From the IMG/VR virus record IMGVR_UViG_3300047560_000921, positions 167,385 to 231,384 of that record: DNA of 64,000 bases; one strand, 5' to 3'. Position 1 is the first letter of the stretch; the number at the start of each line of letters is the position of its first letter. The stretch is from a virus. Shown here one piece after another: positions 5,144 through 54,062 of this stretch. Under the pieces are notes generated by a model, which was not told the origin of the DNA, ran no database searches, and saw only the letters and a program-made list of their open reading frames with translations. Made by a program: the position numbers and the translations under genes.

Positions 5144-5778
5144 TGCCCGATATGAAATATTTGATTTTAAGCACTGAGAATTTTTGTGTTTATACTATGA
5201 GTCCCCGACACTTAACTGCAAATGCATTAGTAGCAGGAGAAGGCGACAGCATGATTCGTGGTATTACTTGGAGCAATAGCGTTGAGTACAATCGTGTTAC
5301 TAACCGAGACTTTTTCTACGATAAAATATACACAGTAGACACAGCACGAAATGCTTTTATTGAAGTAGATCCTGCTAATGTGTCCGATACATGGAAGCAA
5401 ACTAGGGAAATTCTTCGATTAAGGCAAGATGCGTTTTTTAATTGGGAAACACATTTATCAAATAGTCTTGCAAGAGTTATGCGACATGGATGGGAACATT
5501 TTGATGTAGTGGCAGAACAAGAAATTGCCAAGTCCGATCCTGCTAATAATAGCTACACATGGGTGTTAGAAGAATATGCTCGTACTATGGAAGTATCAGT
5601 ACAGCAGGCCTACAAAGAATTAAAGTTACGCATCGAATCTGACAACATTACCAAATTTAGAATTCAAGCCCTTGGAGAAAAATGGCGAAATAAAATAAAT
5701 CAATGTAATACATTCAACGACATTGAAGCCGCAAGAAAAGAAATGGTACGAGAGTTTTGGCTTAACAGTTTAATATGA
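5140..5778 (+). CDS. Uncharacterised protein, 212 aa
   Basis: Not recognised. The start is placed at ATG 5140, which overlaps the upstream stop by 4 nt (ATGA) as elsewhere in this operon; an ORF extension to 5083 is frame read-through in the hydrolase gene. The C-terminal half is helical and charged. It sits between an alpha/beta hydrolase and a PP-loop ATPase, so a role in the same modification pathway is likely but unproven. Confidence 0.7.
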   Translation: MMPDMKYLILSTENFCVYTMSPRHLTANALVAGEGDSMIRGITWSNSVEYNRVTNRDFFYDKIYTVDTARNAFIEVDPANVSDTWKQTREILRLRQDAFFNWETHLSNSLARVMRHGWEHFDVVAEQEIAKSDPANNSYTWVLEEYARTMEVSVQQAYKELKLRIESDNITKFRIQALGEKWRNKINQCNTFNDIEAARKEMVREFWLNSLI

Positions 5779-6872
5779 AATCACTTTACTATTTTAATCC
5801 TATGACTGTTACTAACAGCCTTTTTAGGAAGGATGCTATTGCATGGGGCAAGGTATATAATCTAATAGGCCGTGCAGTGGGTATGAATGATAGGTCGGGA
5901 ACGTTAAGCCAGCCCATATCATTGGCCACCTATGATAGATGTAAACTGCCAGTCCTTAGTTCCAACTATGTTTCTTATGATGAAGCCGCAGACCAAAGGG
6001 TAAAAGAAATATATGAATCTAGTGTAAGGCTAGGTAAACCTATAGGCATTATGTGGAGTGGCGGCATTGATAGTACAACCATTGTTGTTGCCTTTCTAAG
6101 AAACTACAGTGTGGCAGAACTTAAACAACGAGTCAAAATTATTCTAAGTACAGAAGCTACGTTAGAAAATCCTACATTTTATTTGAATCACATTTTACCT
6201 AACTTTGAATTTGTTAACAGTGAATACACGCCATGGCTATTTGACGGATCTATGTTAATTGTTACTGGGGAATTTAACGACCAACTGTTTGGTAGTGATT
6301 TAATTAAATTTTACTTAACTACATGCGGAGCAGAAACAGTCAATGCAAAATTTTCACGCGATGATATTTTTAGTTATATCAACAGCAAAATAAAAGATAG
6401 TAAAATATCAAACATTTTAATTGATGCAGTTATTGAGTCTAGTACCAAGTACGGCGTCAGCTTAGAAAAGAATAGTGATTTCTTTTGGTGGTACAATTTC
6501 TGCTTTAAATGGCAGTGCGTACATTTTAGATTTTATGCATTAACGTTTCCTAGATTAATCCCAACAATTAATGAAGAGTGGGACAGAACGTACATGATAC
6601 ATTTTTTCCAAACAGATGCATTTCAGTTATGGAGCATTAATAGTCCGCAAGTAAGGTACATCGATGATTGGAAGAACTATAAATTTAAGGCCAAGGAAAG
6701 TATCTATAGATTTGATAAGAACTATGAGTACTTCAGAAACAAAATCAAACGCCCTAGCTTACAAACAGTATTTTATCAGCGAATACTATCCGAAGCAGTA
6801 ACTAGTGATTTTCAAATATTGCCTACATTTGATCCGCATGAATATTATAACTCAGAAAATTCATTCAAATAA
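5775..6872 (+). CDS. PP-loop ATP pyrophosphatase, asparagine-synthase-like
   Basis: 365 aa. The PP-loop SGGIDSTT at about residues 95-102 binds ATP pyrophosphate, and GEFNDQLFGSD at about residue 165 resembles the GEGADELF segment of asparagine synthetase C domains. No N-terminal glutaminase is present, so it probably adenylates a carboxylate or similar substrate with another nitrogen donor. It has a clear paralogue at 18970-19890 (shared FQLWSxNxP and FxxKxSIYxFxKN-like C-terminal segments). It starts in a 4-nt overlap and ends at a bidirectional terminator. QueC-like activity is less likely because the second motif is asparagine-synthase-like. Confidence 0.75.
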   Translation: MKSLYYFNPMTVTNSLFRKDAIAWGKVYNLIGRAVGMNDRSGTLSQPISLATYDRCKLPVLSSNYVSYDEAADQRVKEIYESSVRLGKPIGIMWSGGIDSTTIVVAFLRNYSVAELKQRVKIILSTEATLENPTFYLNHILPNFEFVNSEYTPWLFDGSMLIVTGEFNDQLFGSDLIKFYLTTCGAETVNAKFSRDDIFSYINSKIKDSKISNILIDAVIESSTKYGVSLEKNSDFFWWYNFCFKWQCVHFRFYALTFPRLIPTINEEWDRTYMIHFFQTDAFQLWSINSPQVRYIDDWKNYKFKAKESIYRFDKNYEYFRNKIKRPSLQTVFYQRILSEAVTSDFQILPTFDPHEYYNSENSFK

Positions 6873-17782: not shown

Positions 17783-18970
17783 TTATCGAATGTAATCTAA
17801 ATTGGTGCCGCCGTCAGTACTGTTGCTCAATGTAGCAGTGGATCCAAACGAGTATTTGGTTTCTTGGCTAAATGGATCTTGATAAATTTCTGTGCTAACC
17901 AATTCCTTATTGACAAAACGCATACCGATAACTTTGTTTTGGTGTACACGAGCAGTTGGGCGCCCGTACAAGATAAAGTAAACGTCTTTGCCTTCTGCAA
18001 TCAGTTTGGTAATGCATTTGATTGCGCTGTAAGTAGTATCGATCCAAGTTTTATTGTCGACACTGCTTACAGTACTAGTAGCAAAACCAAAGCTGGTAAT
18101 AAAGTAACTGTCGTACTGATTATTGATACTGCTTAAAAACACATCAAACTGTTCCCATTTTTGCTGATCCAGCAAGTCTAAATACTGAAGTGTGTCAATT
18201 TCAAAATAAGGATCTACGCTGAGAACAACATTGTCAGTTCTGGCAGTCTTAGGATCTAATAAGTCTAAGCTAGTTAGTTTTTTCCTAAACTGCATGGACA
18301 ATGCAGGAGTGCAATAGCCGCCGCCCAAATCATACGCGGCCTCTGCATTGGCAATAACATCAGTTAAAACATTAAAGTCGCCGCTGGTAGTTAGCCAAGT
18401 ATAGATACTGGTATTAGTAGCAGTTTCGCCAGAGATTTTCTTTAGGCCGCCTAGTGTAACACTGGCTTTGACTACGTTGTCGATTAGGTCTGTGCGAGAC
18501 ATTAAATCGCGAAGGTCTTGTTCTGTTTCTAACTTTCTGCTAAACATGTTTTTGAATAATGTCTTCAACAGAATATGAATGTAGGGAACTTTGTCACGAG
18601 ACTGTAGGCCGTTAACATAGTTTACTAGTAGTCTTGTGTTGGCAAAATTTTCTTCGTACAAAGTAATAACCCATTGGTTGATAGGACTTTTATCAATCAT
18701 CTTAACAGTGTTGGCCATAGCACTGGATTTAGTGTCAATGGCATTGCTTTTCATATACTGCATCCATGCTGTTTTGTTACTTAATTTAACTTGGGGAACA
18801 AGGATAGGCTTTTTAGTTGCTAGCAGTGCTAAAAGTCTTGTTAGTAATTCATGATAGTCTTCGCTATCTTTGTCTAAGTTATTAATTTGTTCCAGCAATT
18901 CTGCATTAGAGTACGCTGTACCCTTGCTAACCTGTTTAACAAATTGTTGGTAAGTTTCATTAACTGCCAT
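17783..18970 (-). CDS. Uncharacterised protein, 395 aa
   Basis: 395 aa from ATG 18970 (1-nt overlap with the PP-loop gene stop; GAGGTG upstream serves as RBS). The N-terminal half is helical, the C-terminal half mixed (DVYFILYGRPTARVHQNKVIGMRFV). No motif is recognised. Its coupling to the PP-loop ATPase suggests a shared pathway. Confidence 0.75.
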   Translation of the reverse strand: MAVNETYQQFVKQVSKGTAYSNAELLEQINNLDKDSEDYHELLTRLLALLATKKPILVPQVKLSNKTAWMQYMKSNAIDTKSSAMANTVKMIDKSPINQWVITLYEENFANTRLLVNYVNGLQSRDKVPYIHILLKTLFKNMFSRKLETEQDLRDLMSRTDLIDNVVKASVTLGGLKKISGETATNTSIYTWLTTSGDFNVLTDVIANAEAAYDLGGGYCTPALSMQFRKKLTSLDLLDPKTARTDNVVLSVDPYFEIDTLQYLDLLDQQKWEQFDVFLSSINNQYDSYFITSFGFATSTVSSVDNKTWIDTTYSAIKCITKLIAEGKDVYFILYGRPTARVHQNKVIGMRFVNKELVSTEIYQDPFSQETKYSFGSTATLSNSTDGGTNLDYIR

Positions 18971-19890
18971 CAGCACACCTCATATTTAAAATTCTCGTCG
19001 ATAGAACATTTAACTGGTCCTATCTTTAAACTGCCTACTTTTAGTTTATTATCTCTGTAATTTTCATCTTTGGTATACTCGAAGATATAATCTTTTGCAG
19101 GCCACTTGTAGCTTTCCAATGTGTCTCGTATCTTGTTGTCAGGATTATTCATACTCCACAACTGGAAGTACTCAGTATCAAAGTAATGTGTAATGCCGCC
19201 CCATGGTAACATAACACTAGGATAGATGCGTAACTGTACGTTTTGGTACTTCATGCTAAAGTTAATCCACCACATAACGTCTTTGGTTTGCTTTAGTTCG
19301 TAAGGTGCATGTACCATTTGTGGTTCCAATGCTGTCCATAGTTCAGGACTAAAATAATCTTGCGGATTGCTGAATAACTTGCCCACTTTCCAAGCATCAA
19401 AGAAAGCGGCACTACCAAACAACTGGTCGCCGATTTCACCTGTAATGTTAATATCAGCAAGAGTTAACAGTTTTTTGGCATCTTGCACTAGCTTGCAAGG
19501 AATACCTTCACGTTGTAACAACTCATAAAACGCAGGGTACTCGCCAATGCTTTTGTCTTGTAATAAGATTACTAATCTACTACGTGCTTTATTATTTTTT
19601 AAAAAGCTAACTGCGGCAGTGGTACTATCGATACCACCACTCCACATTAAGTTTATCTTGCAATTACGCTGTTCGGCTAAAGCACCTAATTCTTCTGCAC
19701 GTAAGTCACATAAATCTGCAAAAGACGTATTCATAACAGTCATTGCAGGAATAGGAGTTAGAGTCTTGTAGGCAAAGTCCCCAAATGTTAATGTGTTTGT
19801 ACGGTCAAGTATGTTACCTCCGTATAAGTTACACAGAGATTTCCAAAACGGAGTGTAATCACATCTACAAGGCAAGTAATATGTTTTCAT
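18970..19890 (-). CDS. PP-loop ATP pyrophosphatase, paralogue of 5775-6872
   Basis: 306 aa. PP-loop SGGIDSTT at about residues 84-91, then TGEIGDQLFGSAAF, the asparagine-synthase-like second motif. The C-terminal third matches the plus-strand paralogue (FQLWSMNNP against FQLWSINSP, each followed by a basic KDYIF/KESIY segment). No glutaminase domain. It starts in a 1-nt overlap (TAATG) with the 96-aa gene and is coupled to the 395-aa gene. Confidence 0.75.
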   Translation of the reverse strand: MKTYYLPCRCDYTPFWKSLCNLYGGNILDRTNTLTFGDFAYKTLTPIPAMTVMNTSFADLCDLRAEELGALAEQRNCKINLMWSGGIDSTTAAVSFLKNNKARSRLVILLQDKSIGEYPAFYELLQREGIPCKLVQDAKKLLTLADINITGEIGDQLFGSAAFFDAWKVGKLFSNPQDYFSPELWTALEPQMVHAPYELKQTKDVMWWINFSMKYQNVQLRIYPSVMLPWGGITHYFDTEYFQLWSMNNPDNKIRDTLESYKWPAKDYIFEYTKDENYRDNKLKVGSLKIGPVKCSIDENFKYEVC

Positions 19891-32866: not shown

Positions 32867-33370
32867 TTAGTCTAGTAAGTTTTCGTTCCACTCACGGTGC
32901 CCTTCACGGAAAGCCATATTGCTTTGCGTTTCTCGAACTTCAACACGATAGCACCATAGGCGTTCTGCTTCTGCAGGACCCCACATTTCAGGAATGTAAA
33001 CACCGTTAACATACTTGTAAAGCATATCGCTGAGACCTTCGCAACCTAGTTTAGGTAGCACAACAATCTTGGCCATTTTCTTTTCTTGTAGTAGTTTGAA
33101 TGTTTCCATTTGTGGATCATCTGCCGCTACAATAAGCGTATGGTCAAATTGGTCTTCTAGTGTTTTCTTAAGTTCTTTAAGTCCGCCATAGTCAGCGGCC
33201 CAGTTACGAACATCTAAGTCGTTTGTGCCAAAGTAGAACTTCATTGAAAAACTGTAACCGTGAATTAGGTTACAATGACTGTCAGCACGCCATTGACGAT
33301 AAGCGCAAGGGAAAGCGTCGTGATATTCTTTTGTACTAGTGTACTTGTATGTGATAGGTTGATTTGCCAT
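32867..33370 (-). CDS. QueD/6-pyruvoyl-tetrahydropterin-synthase-like protein
   Basis: 167 aa. FPCAYRQWRADSHCNLIHGYSF aligns with the QueD zinc and catalytic region, DYGGLKELK with the family DFxxLK, EDQFDHTLIV with LDH..L, and EVRETQSN with the substrate-binding ET. Relative to bacterial QueD, two of the three zinc-ligand His are Tyr (AYR for AHR, HGY for HGH); the Cys is kept. No other queuosine or archaeosine gene is visible here. Strong RBS AAGGAG. Confidence 0.75.
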   Translation of the reverse strand: MANQPITYKYTSTKEYHDAFPCAYRQWRADSHCNLIHGYSFSMKFYFGTNDLDVRNWAADYGGLKELKKTLEDQFDHTLIVAADDPQMETFKLLQEKKMAKIVVLPKLGCEGLSDMLYKYVNGVYIPEMWGPAEAERLWCYRVEVRETQSNMAFREGHREWNENLLD

Positions 33371-51713: not shown

Positions 51714-52283
51714 TTAAGCTAGGCCTTCGGCAACAAGAACCTTTTCAGCGTCGCCGCCTACTTCGATTTCTGTGCGAACGTTAAGCTCAAGGATCTCGTC
51801 CTGTAGCTTTTGCTTGGCCTTTTTAAGTTGCAACAATGCGCCTTTGAAGCCTGTAATGTCCTCTTGTTTGAGAACACTGGTAGCTACATTAGATTCGTAG
51901 CCGTAGATGGTTCGTGCATCTTCTTTGCGGTTCTTGATTTTATCAAGTTTGCCTTTGATGACATCCATGCTTTCCTGGGCCTTCTTGCCACCCAAGGTGT
52001 TAAATTGTCCGATACGCTTATCGAACATCGCCACTTCGCCCAACTTCAAGTTGATGCCGGATGTAGCGTTGGCGGTTGCGACCGCATTTCGTACAGTGTA
52101 CAACACTGTGTTCAAGTTTTGAACACGAGCCATGTTGTTCAACAGTGTTTGGCGAGTTTCAGCCAAGACCGTTTCTGGATCTTGGAACTCGTTAAGGGAA
52201 ACTTCAGTTTCCAGTTCGATGCCTTTGATTGCATCGTTAATTGCTGTTTGAAGCTGGCTAGCTTTACGTAGACTGATTTTCAT
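51714..52283 (-). CDS. Coiled-coil protein, 189 aa
   Basis: 189 aa from ATG 52283 (RBS AAAGGAC). Mostly helical with KGKLDKIKNRKEDARTIY and QLKKAKQKLQDEILEL segments. It is coupled to AcpS by a 4-nt overlap. Its first residues MKISLRKASQLQ are typical of a phage protein family of unknown function. No membrane segment. Confidence 0.8.
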   Translation of the reverse strand: MKISLRKASQLQTAINDAIKGIELETEVSLNEFQDPETVLAETRQTLLNNMARVQNLNTVLYTVRNAVATANATSGINLKLGEVAMFDKRIGQFNTLGGKKAQESMDVIKGKLDKIKNRKEDARTIYGYESNVATSVLKQEDITGFKGALLQLKKAKQKLQDEILELNVRTEIEVGGDAEKVLVAEGLA

Positions 52284-52645
52284 TGTGTGTCCTTTTCTAA
52301 AATGACTACTGCACATGCCGTAGTCTTAGTATCTGTAATTGAAATTAAACCTTTGCGGTTATGCGTATTTTTAAGTACAGGGGCTCCTAGTGCGTCATGC
52401 TCGACCCACACCTTTTGCCAATCTCTTAAACTTTGGATGCCCGTTCCCAGTGCTTTGAAATACGCTTCTTTAACTGCAATGCGTTTTGTTAAGTATGTTA
52501 TTATAGCAGATCCTTGCAATTTGTCTAGCTCTAATTTCTCCAAATCGCTACAAACAAACTCAACTAGTCTCTTTGGGTTTCGGGAGAACATGCGTTCAAC
52601 ACGTTCTCTTTCCACCATATCAACTGCAAAGCCAGCAATTTGCAT
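52280..52645 (-). CDS. acpS: Holo-[acyl-carrier-protein] synthase (AcpS-like)
   Basis: 121 aa, the family length. FAVDMVERERVERMF carries the conserved Asp (D9) and RIAVKEAYFKALGTGI the conserved Glu and Lys of the CoA/Mg site; DWQKVWVEHDALGAPVL is the family ACP/substrate strand. The enzyme transfers 4'-phosphopantetheine from CoA to a Ser of carrier proteins. No carrier protein is visible in the window, so host ACP or a phage gene elsewhere would be the target. 1-nt overlap with the BI-1 gene. Confidence 0.88.
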   Translation of the reverse strand: MQIAGFAVDMVERERVERMFSRNPKRLVEFVCSDLEKLELDKLQGSAIITYLTKRIAVKEAYFKALGTGIQSLRDWQKVWVEHDALGAPVLKNTHNRKGLISITDTKTTACAVVILEKDTQ

Positions 52646-53346
52646 TAGTCGTCTTTGCTAGGTGCTACACCAAAGAGCTGTAGCAAGTTAACAAACAAGT
52701 TGATAAAGTCCAAGTACAAAGTCAACGCACCGCAAACTTCAATGGCCACACTGGTATCATTACTGACCATCTCACGGATTTGCTGTGTATCGTAAGCAGT
52801 GAATGCCAAGAAGATTACAATAGCAATCGCTGAAATTACCATTTGTAGCACACTTGAGCCAATAAAGATATTGATAACACTGGCAATGATAATTGCAATC
52901 AGTGCAACCAGCAAGTAAGCGCCCAAGTTATCTAGACTGCGTTTGGTAAAGTATCCGTAGAAACTCATTACGCCAAACAACACTGCGGCACCCATGAAGG
53001 CTGTAAAAATACTGCCCATGCTGTAAACTACAAAGATAGCACTTAGGCTTAGACCCATTAAAGCCGCAAAACCATGCAGTAGACCAACTGCAACAGGAGC
53101 AGGAGGATTAGCGTTAAGTGCCGGCATCATAATGAAAACTGCAACCAAAGGTGCAAACAATACGACCCACTTCATCACACCAGTGAAGAAGAATGCCATT
53201 GCGGCTGGACTAGTGCCAACTACAAAACTAACCAACATGCTTGTTACTACGGCAAGCATCATGTGCATGTACACACGACCCATTGCAGAGTTAACTTCAC
53301 CTGCTGTACGATAGGGCTGGTTGCCCGAATAAACTGTTCCAAACAT
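52645..53346 (-). CDS. Bax-inhibitor-1 family (YccA/YbhL-like) membrane protein
   Basis: 233 aa from ATG 53346 with RBS AAGGAG. Seven hydrophobic segments and the family end ..ALTLYLDFINLFVNLLQLFG plus FTAYDTQQI (conserved Asp pair) identify BI-1. E. coli YccA of this family is an FtsH substrate and modulator. Placed between ClpP and AcpS, it suggests control of host membrane proteolysis. Confidence 0.92.
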   Translation of the reverse strand: MFGTVYSGNQPYRTAGEVNSAMGRVYMHMMLAVVTSMLVSFVVGTSPAAMAFFFTGVMKWVVLFAPLVAVFIMMPALNANPPAPVAVGLLHGFAALMGLSLSAIFVVYSMGSIFTAFMGAAVLFGVMSFYGYFTKRSLDNLGAYLLVALIAIIIASVINIFIGSSVLQMVISAIAIVIFLAFTAYDTQQIREMVSNDTSVAIEVCGALTLYLDFINLFVNLLQLFGVAPSKDD

Positions 53347-53359
53347 AAAGTTCTCCTTG

Positions 53360-53509
53360 TTACCAATTACCTTTGTCATTGTCGGATAGTCCGTCAATGG
53401 CTTTTACTACACACACTACCACAACTGCGGCGATAATAATAAACAACAATCCTTCTACTAGAATCGATAGTCCCTTATCGCTTGTCAACAACTTGATCAG
53501 CCAATCCAT
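53360..53509 (-). CDS. Small membrane protein, 49 aa, overlapping the clpP end
   Basis: A 49-aa frame in the +1 register across the clpP stop: [20 protein letters not shown] then a strongly hydrophobic [16 protein letters not shown] and an acidic end. AGGAGG lies 9 nt before the ATG. It fills the 128-bp gap before BI-1, which itself starts 13 nt after this stop. One transmembrane helix; a possible partner of BI-1. Confidence 0.7.
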
Positions 53510-54062
53510 AGTCCACTGCCTCCTGAGCACTCATAAAGTAGTCACGTTCCATGTCAGCGGATAGCTGTTTAAAGCTCTTGCGTTTGCTATTGTGCTTGAC
53601 GTAGATTTCCGTCAAATTTTGTTTCATAGCCAAAATCTCTTTGACTTGAATTTCCATGTCCGTTGCTTGGCCACGGGCACCACCGCTGGGTTGGTGAATC
53701 ATGTGTCGTGCGTTGGGTAAGATACTGCGTTTACCTTTGGCGCCTGCTTGTGCCAATAAACTACCCATAGAACATGCTTGTCCCATTACAATCGTCGCAA
53801 CATCACACTTGATAAACTGCATGGTATCGTAAATTGCAAGCCCTGCGGTAACTACCCCGCCTGGACTATTTATAAACAGTGTAATGTCCTTGCCAGGATC
53901 TTCGCTTTCCAGGAAAAGCAATTGGGCAACAATCAAATTGGCCATTTGATCATGCACTTCGCCTTCTAGCAAGACGATTCGATCCTTGAGCAAACGGCTA
54001 TAAATGTCATAGCTACGTTCGCCGCGGCTGGTTTGTTCAACAACAATAGGTACTAAACTCAT
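53475..54062 (-). CDS. clpP: ClpP serine protease
   Basis: 195 aa, close to bacterial ClpP. Catalytic Ser in QACSMGSLL, His in [10 protein letters not shown] and Asp in DMERDYFMS. The N-terminal [22 protein letters not shown] matches the axial and hydrophobic-cleft region. Forms the 14-mer protease barrel and could be fed by the phage ClpA or host Clp ATPases. RBS GAGGAAAT. Heads the operon ending with the AcpS and coiled-coil genes. Confidence 0.95.

Follow-up and report, generated by a model that had tools for sequence, protein, structure and literature searches.

A phage-encoded AcpS-type phosphopantetheinyl transferase in a 231 kb viral record

The stretch of DNA analysed here (64 kb, called the window) runs from base 167385 to the last base, 231384, of a viral record (G000), and positions refer to the window unless G000 is named with them. 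The gene acpS lies on the minus strand at 52280..52645 and was assigned a 121-aa product, an AcpS-type (group I) 4'-phosphopantetheinyl transferase with D9, K59, E60 and K64; an earlier note on this DNA had the coordinates and length right and left the strand unstated. Upstream of it, also on the minus strand, is the gene for a Bax1-I / YccA-like membrane protein (52645..53397), which was matched by Pfam Bax1-I at 8.6e-52 and weakly, at 8.1e-08 and far under the cut-off, by NF007765 (YccA). A ClpP-like protease gene (53475..54062, minus strand; Pfam CLP_protease, 1e-80) stands upstream of the Bax1-I gene. Downstream of acpS is an unnamed phage gene of about 189 aa (51714..52283, minus strand), for which no Pfam family was found; taking its first ATG as the start (52316) gives a longer ORF. 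The stop of the Bax1-I gene and the start of acpS overlap by 1 base (TAATG), and the stop of acpS and the ATG of the downstream gene by 4 bases (ATGA), overlaps of the kind that typify translational coupling.

The protein was matched by the Pfam ACPS family (6.9e-13, 49 bits against a cut-off of 25) and by TIGR00516, the NCBIfam acpS equivalog (4.4e-16), at 59.3 bits, just below the cut-off of 59.8. Among the sequences of solved structures its best matches were bacterial AcpS (best 8.8e-13), and none of the PHROG families matched at 1e-3 or better, the sole one listed standing at 0.019. A confident AlphaFold model was obtained (pLDDT 94.9, pTM 0.88). The top Foldseek match of this model was S. 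aureus AcpS (E 1.3e-10, TM 0.90), and the best 40 matches were bacterial AcpS without exception, with TM-scores of about 0.9; nothing below 1e-3 was found in the viral structure library BFVD. The TM-score against 4jm7 was 0.90, and the length of 121 aa fits the AcpS fold of ~120 residues. The sequence itself is that of an ordinary AcpS, and its phage home is the uncommon part.

Residues were compared by aligning 68 AcpS proteins, taken from viral as well as bacterial loci. All 11 invariant columns were kept in the phage protein (G5, D9, E36, K59, E60, A61, K64, A65, G67, G69 and P89), and the loss of catalytic residues for which the earlier note had proposed a careful alignment was seen at none of them. 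The Asp, Glu and Lys that it had ascribed to the family are D9, E60 and K64, and these were invariant across the 68 sequences, as were K59, E36, G67, G69 and P89. In AcpS the CoA/metal ligands are Asp8, Glu57/58 and Lys61/62, the ACP contact in the Bacillus enzymes is Arg14, and Asp112 of V. cholerae AcpS contacts the CoA pyrophosphate (PMC3447402). By alignment, D9, E60 and K64 of the phage protein are the equivalents of these ligands, R15 falls in the column of Arg14, and D105 is shared with V. cholerae at the Asp112 position, a column that holds His in the Firmicutes enzymes and Asp in the proteobacterial rows. Compared with bacterial AcpS (TIGR00516; PDB 4jm7, 3hyk, 3qmn and 5vbx), the length, fold, Asp/Glu/Lys ligands and ACP-contact arginine are thus the same. 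The phage copy differs in standing in a phage operon, in being at most ~41% identical to any aligned AcpS and in its long branch. It also differs from V. cholerae AcpS, which has a helix between its last strands, in having a short loop before the final strands, as do the Firmicutes enzymes, which are without helix alpha-6 there. The Bacillus Arg28 position is occupied by F30 and the Lys44/Arg45 positions fall in a QGS stretch; since none of these is basic, the carrier-binding face may differ, and the partial loss of basic positions together with the very long branch means that substrate preference could have shifted. The same features, with the lack of a close relative, would suit an AcpS homologue of lost or changed activity (a decoy, a CoA-binding or a structural protein), whether otherwise retained or decaying, but this is unlikely, as the invariant residues, intact frame, overlapping operon junctions and confident predicted fold have all been retained. 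On sequence and model alike, the product of 52280-52645 is convincingly assigned to the AcpS-type (group I) phosphopantetheinyl transferases.

Of the 123 viral loci recovered with the Bax1-I protein, the best 80 encode relatives ~59-75% identical to it; relatives 45-51% identical to the downstream protein were present in 14 viral contigs. In named phage records the Bax1-I (YccA-like) protein had distant matches only, mostly at 30-38% identity. Because its neighbours are conserved in phages and its start and stop overlap theirs on both sides, acpS is taken to be a resident, probably co-translated, phage gene. It was absent from all of the loci holding relatives of the neighbours, and from the 27 large records behind them, and therefore looks like a gain in the G000 phage's own lineage. 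That the gene should instead come from misassembly or from host DNA in the contig is very improbable. Seven early matches in viral contigs (L014-L020) did prove to be of this kind, lying on contigs from the edges of prophages; where sequence suffices, these show host pdxJ and acpS in that order beside prophage genes, and all seven were set aside. In G000, however, both overlapping neighbours have relatives in large viral contigs, the gene order is unlike that of the bacterial acpS locus, and no AcpS more than ~41% identical was found. The reading as a phage-encoded AcpS, put forward in the earlier note, is well supported by Pfam ACPS, TIGR00516 and solved AcpS matches, the invariant residues, the predicted fold and the flanking phage genes.

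When the protein alone was used as query, no relative was found among viral contigs. With alignments as queries, AcpS was recovered from 25 other viral records (G001-G014 and G043-G053; IMG/VR, environmental), among them large contigs of up to 342 kb; T4-like contigs (L021-L024) carried it with gp32-, UvsW- and capsid-like ORFs, recognised by eye, as neighbours. The 50,697 isolate and other named phage records yielded no trustworthy AcpS. The description of such enzymes as rare in phages stood for isolate genomes, but the 25 records carrying one are environmental; phage AcpS is uncommon, not unique. Matching records named as Listeria, Enterococcus and Staphylococcus phages were unannotated contigs, all three of those inspected being marked 'UNVERIFIED', and were not counted as phage AcpS. 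An acpS annotated in Microcystis phage MaAM05 was not used as precedent, since its neighbours glyS, secDF, smc and scpAB look bacterial; the whole stretch (MW495066.1 118861-143064; L263) has this look, and the record may be mislabelled. No paper on a phage AcpS was found in the open-access library searched.

A maximum-likelihood tree, from which the short AcpS type of 102-104 aa (L238-L246) was left out, required at least 5 changes between viral and bacterial AcpS, which suggests several separate captures, and single placements in it are unsafe because of long branches. The G000 protein was placed beside a proteobacterial MAG (support 98/27) on a branch of 3.49 changes per column, a place that is itself unsure. 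Ranked by E-value, its top bacterial match was in a betaproteobacterial MAG contig (38% identical). The other viral AcpS belong to the same family and likewise occur in large phages, some T4-like, but they stand on separate branches of the tree.

G000 is cut inside a gene at its left end and inside another at its right end, and the two truncated genes do not appear to be parts of a single one. As the ends lie within different genes and share no words of 15 bases or more, the genome is probably incomplete. A single ACPS match was found in the whole record. The earlier note had reported no carrier-protein gene in the window, which is correct, and the same was found for all 231 kb: Pfam PP-binding up to E 10 gave no carrier in the window or the record, nor did a custom profile built from phage ACPs and run against all six frames of the record, and phmmer, scans for the DSL motif with acidity and charge, and inspection of gaps in G000 gave no credible one. 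Ketoacyl synthase was absent from the record. Two fatty-acid desaturases were present; desaturases also occurred in 9 of the 27 large phages without AcpS, and the association of AcpS with desaturases across phages, when tested, was weak.

Several other genes of the record were noted in passing. G000 99759-110313 (L007) holds an unexplained enzyme cluster of radical-SAM/B12, desaturase, TauD-like, aspartyl-hydroxylase-like and SDR genes with ATP-pyrophosphatase-like ORFs. The SGGIDST motif, as in ATP-pyrophosphatases of the asparagine-synthase or NAD-synthase type, was seen in two ORFs of the window (5775-6872 and 18970-19890). A QueD-like 6-pyruvoyl-tetrahydropterin synthase (window 32867-33370) is 50% identical to its counterpart in Acidovorax phage ACP17 and, with QueE-like and tRNA-guanine transglycosylase-like ORFs recognised by eye elsewhere in G000, would fit a 7-deazaguanine pathway.

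The best explanation, to which we give a probability of roughly 0.55, is that acpS encodes a functional AcpS captured from a bacterium, with host ACP as the likeliest target. The gene would have been taken from a bacterial host, probably a proteobacterium, and its product would be made from the tight operon with the Bax1-I/YccA-like membrane protein. The enzyme is expected to form a trimer, as bacterial AcpS does, to bind CoA and Mg2+ through D9, E60 and K64 and to transfer 4'-phosphopantetheine to the serine of the DSL motif on an apo carrier, giving a holo-carrier during infection. Host ACP so modified might keep fatty-acid and envelope lipid synthesis supplied while the infection lasts. YccA modulates FtsH, and FtsH controls LpxC turnover in E. 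coli. The two phage desaturases fit a lipid role, and together with the YccA-like neighbour they suggest, by inference, a role in envelope lipids. The earlier note had offered two targets, host ACP or a carrier encoded elsewhere in the phage, and the choice was narrowed only slightly. Host ACP was put first because 231 kb of sequence contain no carrier, which favours it a little; a phage carrier was put second because the AcpS-bearing relatives often have one, the two genes frequently travelling together, and because the record is incomplete.

That second reading, of a true AcpS serving a phage-encoded carrier in a joint phage biosynthetic step, is tentative. The carrier would be too diverged for recognition or would lie in sequence that the record lacks, as it may, both ends being cut inside genes. 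Whereas none was detected in G000, a PP-binding match was present in 12 of the 25 other viral records with AcpS; the carriers of G013 and G043 scored just below the Pfam cut-off, the former having an LDSLE motif and an adjacent ketoacyl synthase and the latter matching the phage-ACP profile at 1.2e-08. Among records of at least ~60 kb, a carrier was found in 5 of 9 with AcpS against 1 of the 27 large phage records without it (Fisher p 0.002; 4/8 and p 0.006 with one near-identical pair merged), p values that are rough because the comparison sets came from different queries and contain related phages. Per base, there were 14 carriers in 1.53 Mb of AcpS-positive sequence against 1 in 4.14 Mb of AcpS-negative sequence. 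Several of the positives are near-copies, so that the association represents fewer independent events than records, which tells against this reading.

Gene order in the other records speaks for a phage carrier too. In G004 the ACP directly follows two desaturase-like genes, and in G043 acpS, a radical-SAM gene, the carrier and a gene of unknown type stand in a row. A repeated phage module of radical-SAM, carrier and a protein of 340-358 aa without family assignment was seen at L259 7286-9945 and L260 4062-6296, and acpS belongs to it in L259. In G047 and its relatives acpS is inserted between two genes that have homologues in G000, with an ACP 7 kb downstream: the product on one side is 59-61% identical to that of G000 94637-95620, and the radical-SAM product on the other is 42% identical to that of G000 95613-97025. 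G000 thus has a region syntenic with these phages. The two G000 genes, however, overlap directly with no acpS between them, the downstream genes beside the G047-type ACP have no homologue in G000, and the G000 acpS lies ~124 kb from this region.

In the 342 kb record G007, AcpS is accompanied by three carriers and by desaturases, and also by an AMP-binding enzyme (7.5e-49), a homologue of tryptophan halogenase (4.3e-88) and a ketoacyl synthase (1.1e-26). At ORFs 2104-8551 of L261 (G007:C1:80000-95000), AMP-binding, tryptophan-halogenase, desaturase-like and ketoacyl synthase genes follow one another, and this row, with the three carriers and AcpS elsewhere in G007, looks like a phage-borne biosynthetic cluster. 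It is possible, though less likely than not, that large phages run carrier-dependent chemistry of their own and that G000 is among them, its carrier being outside the sequenced part or unrecognised. The enzymes brought in would then be AcpS, carriers, ketoacyl synthase, AMP-ligase, desaturases, and halogenase or radical-SAM.

Phage ACPs have been described in Alteromonas phage R22Y, in Rhodobacteraceae prophages and in Erwinia Eneladusvirus virions (PMC11705849, PMC8224337, PMC7760394). The G000 AcpS touches the same carrier-protein metabolism from the opposite side, as those papers report a carrier and mention no phosphopantetheinyl transferase, whereas G000 has the transferase and no detected carrier. 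Pelagimyophages encode fabF and a stearoyl-CoA desaturase (PMC7029224), likewise phage genes of lipid synthesis, with AcpS and ACP unmentioned in that work. Phage ACPs, phage fabF and desaturases have thus been published already, and the phages that combine AcpS with carriers are potentially the larger story.

Host ACP is still taken here as the likeliest substrate in G000. With a phosphopantetheinyl transferase of its own, whichever carrier it serves, a virus would be able to choose the carrier proteins to be activated, and activation is a point at which the synthesis of fatty acids, lipid A and natural products is controlled. The combination of AcpS with carriers, and in G007 with its further enzymes, would imply that carrier-based biosynthesis is, in some phages, a pathway encoded by the virus itself.
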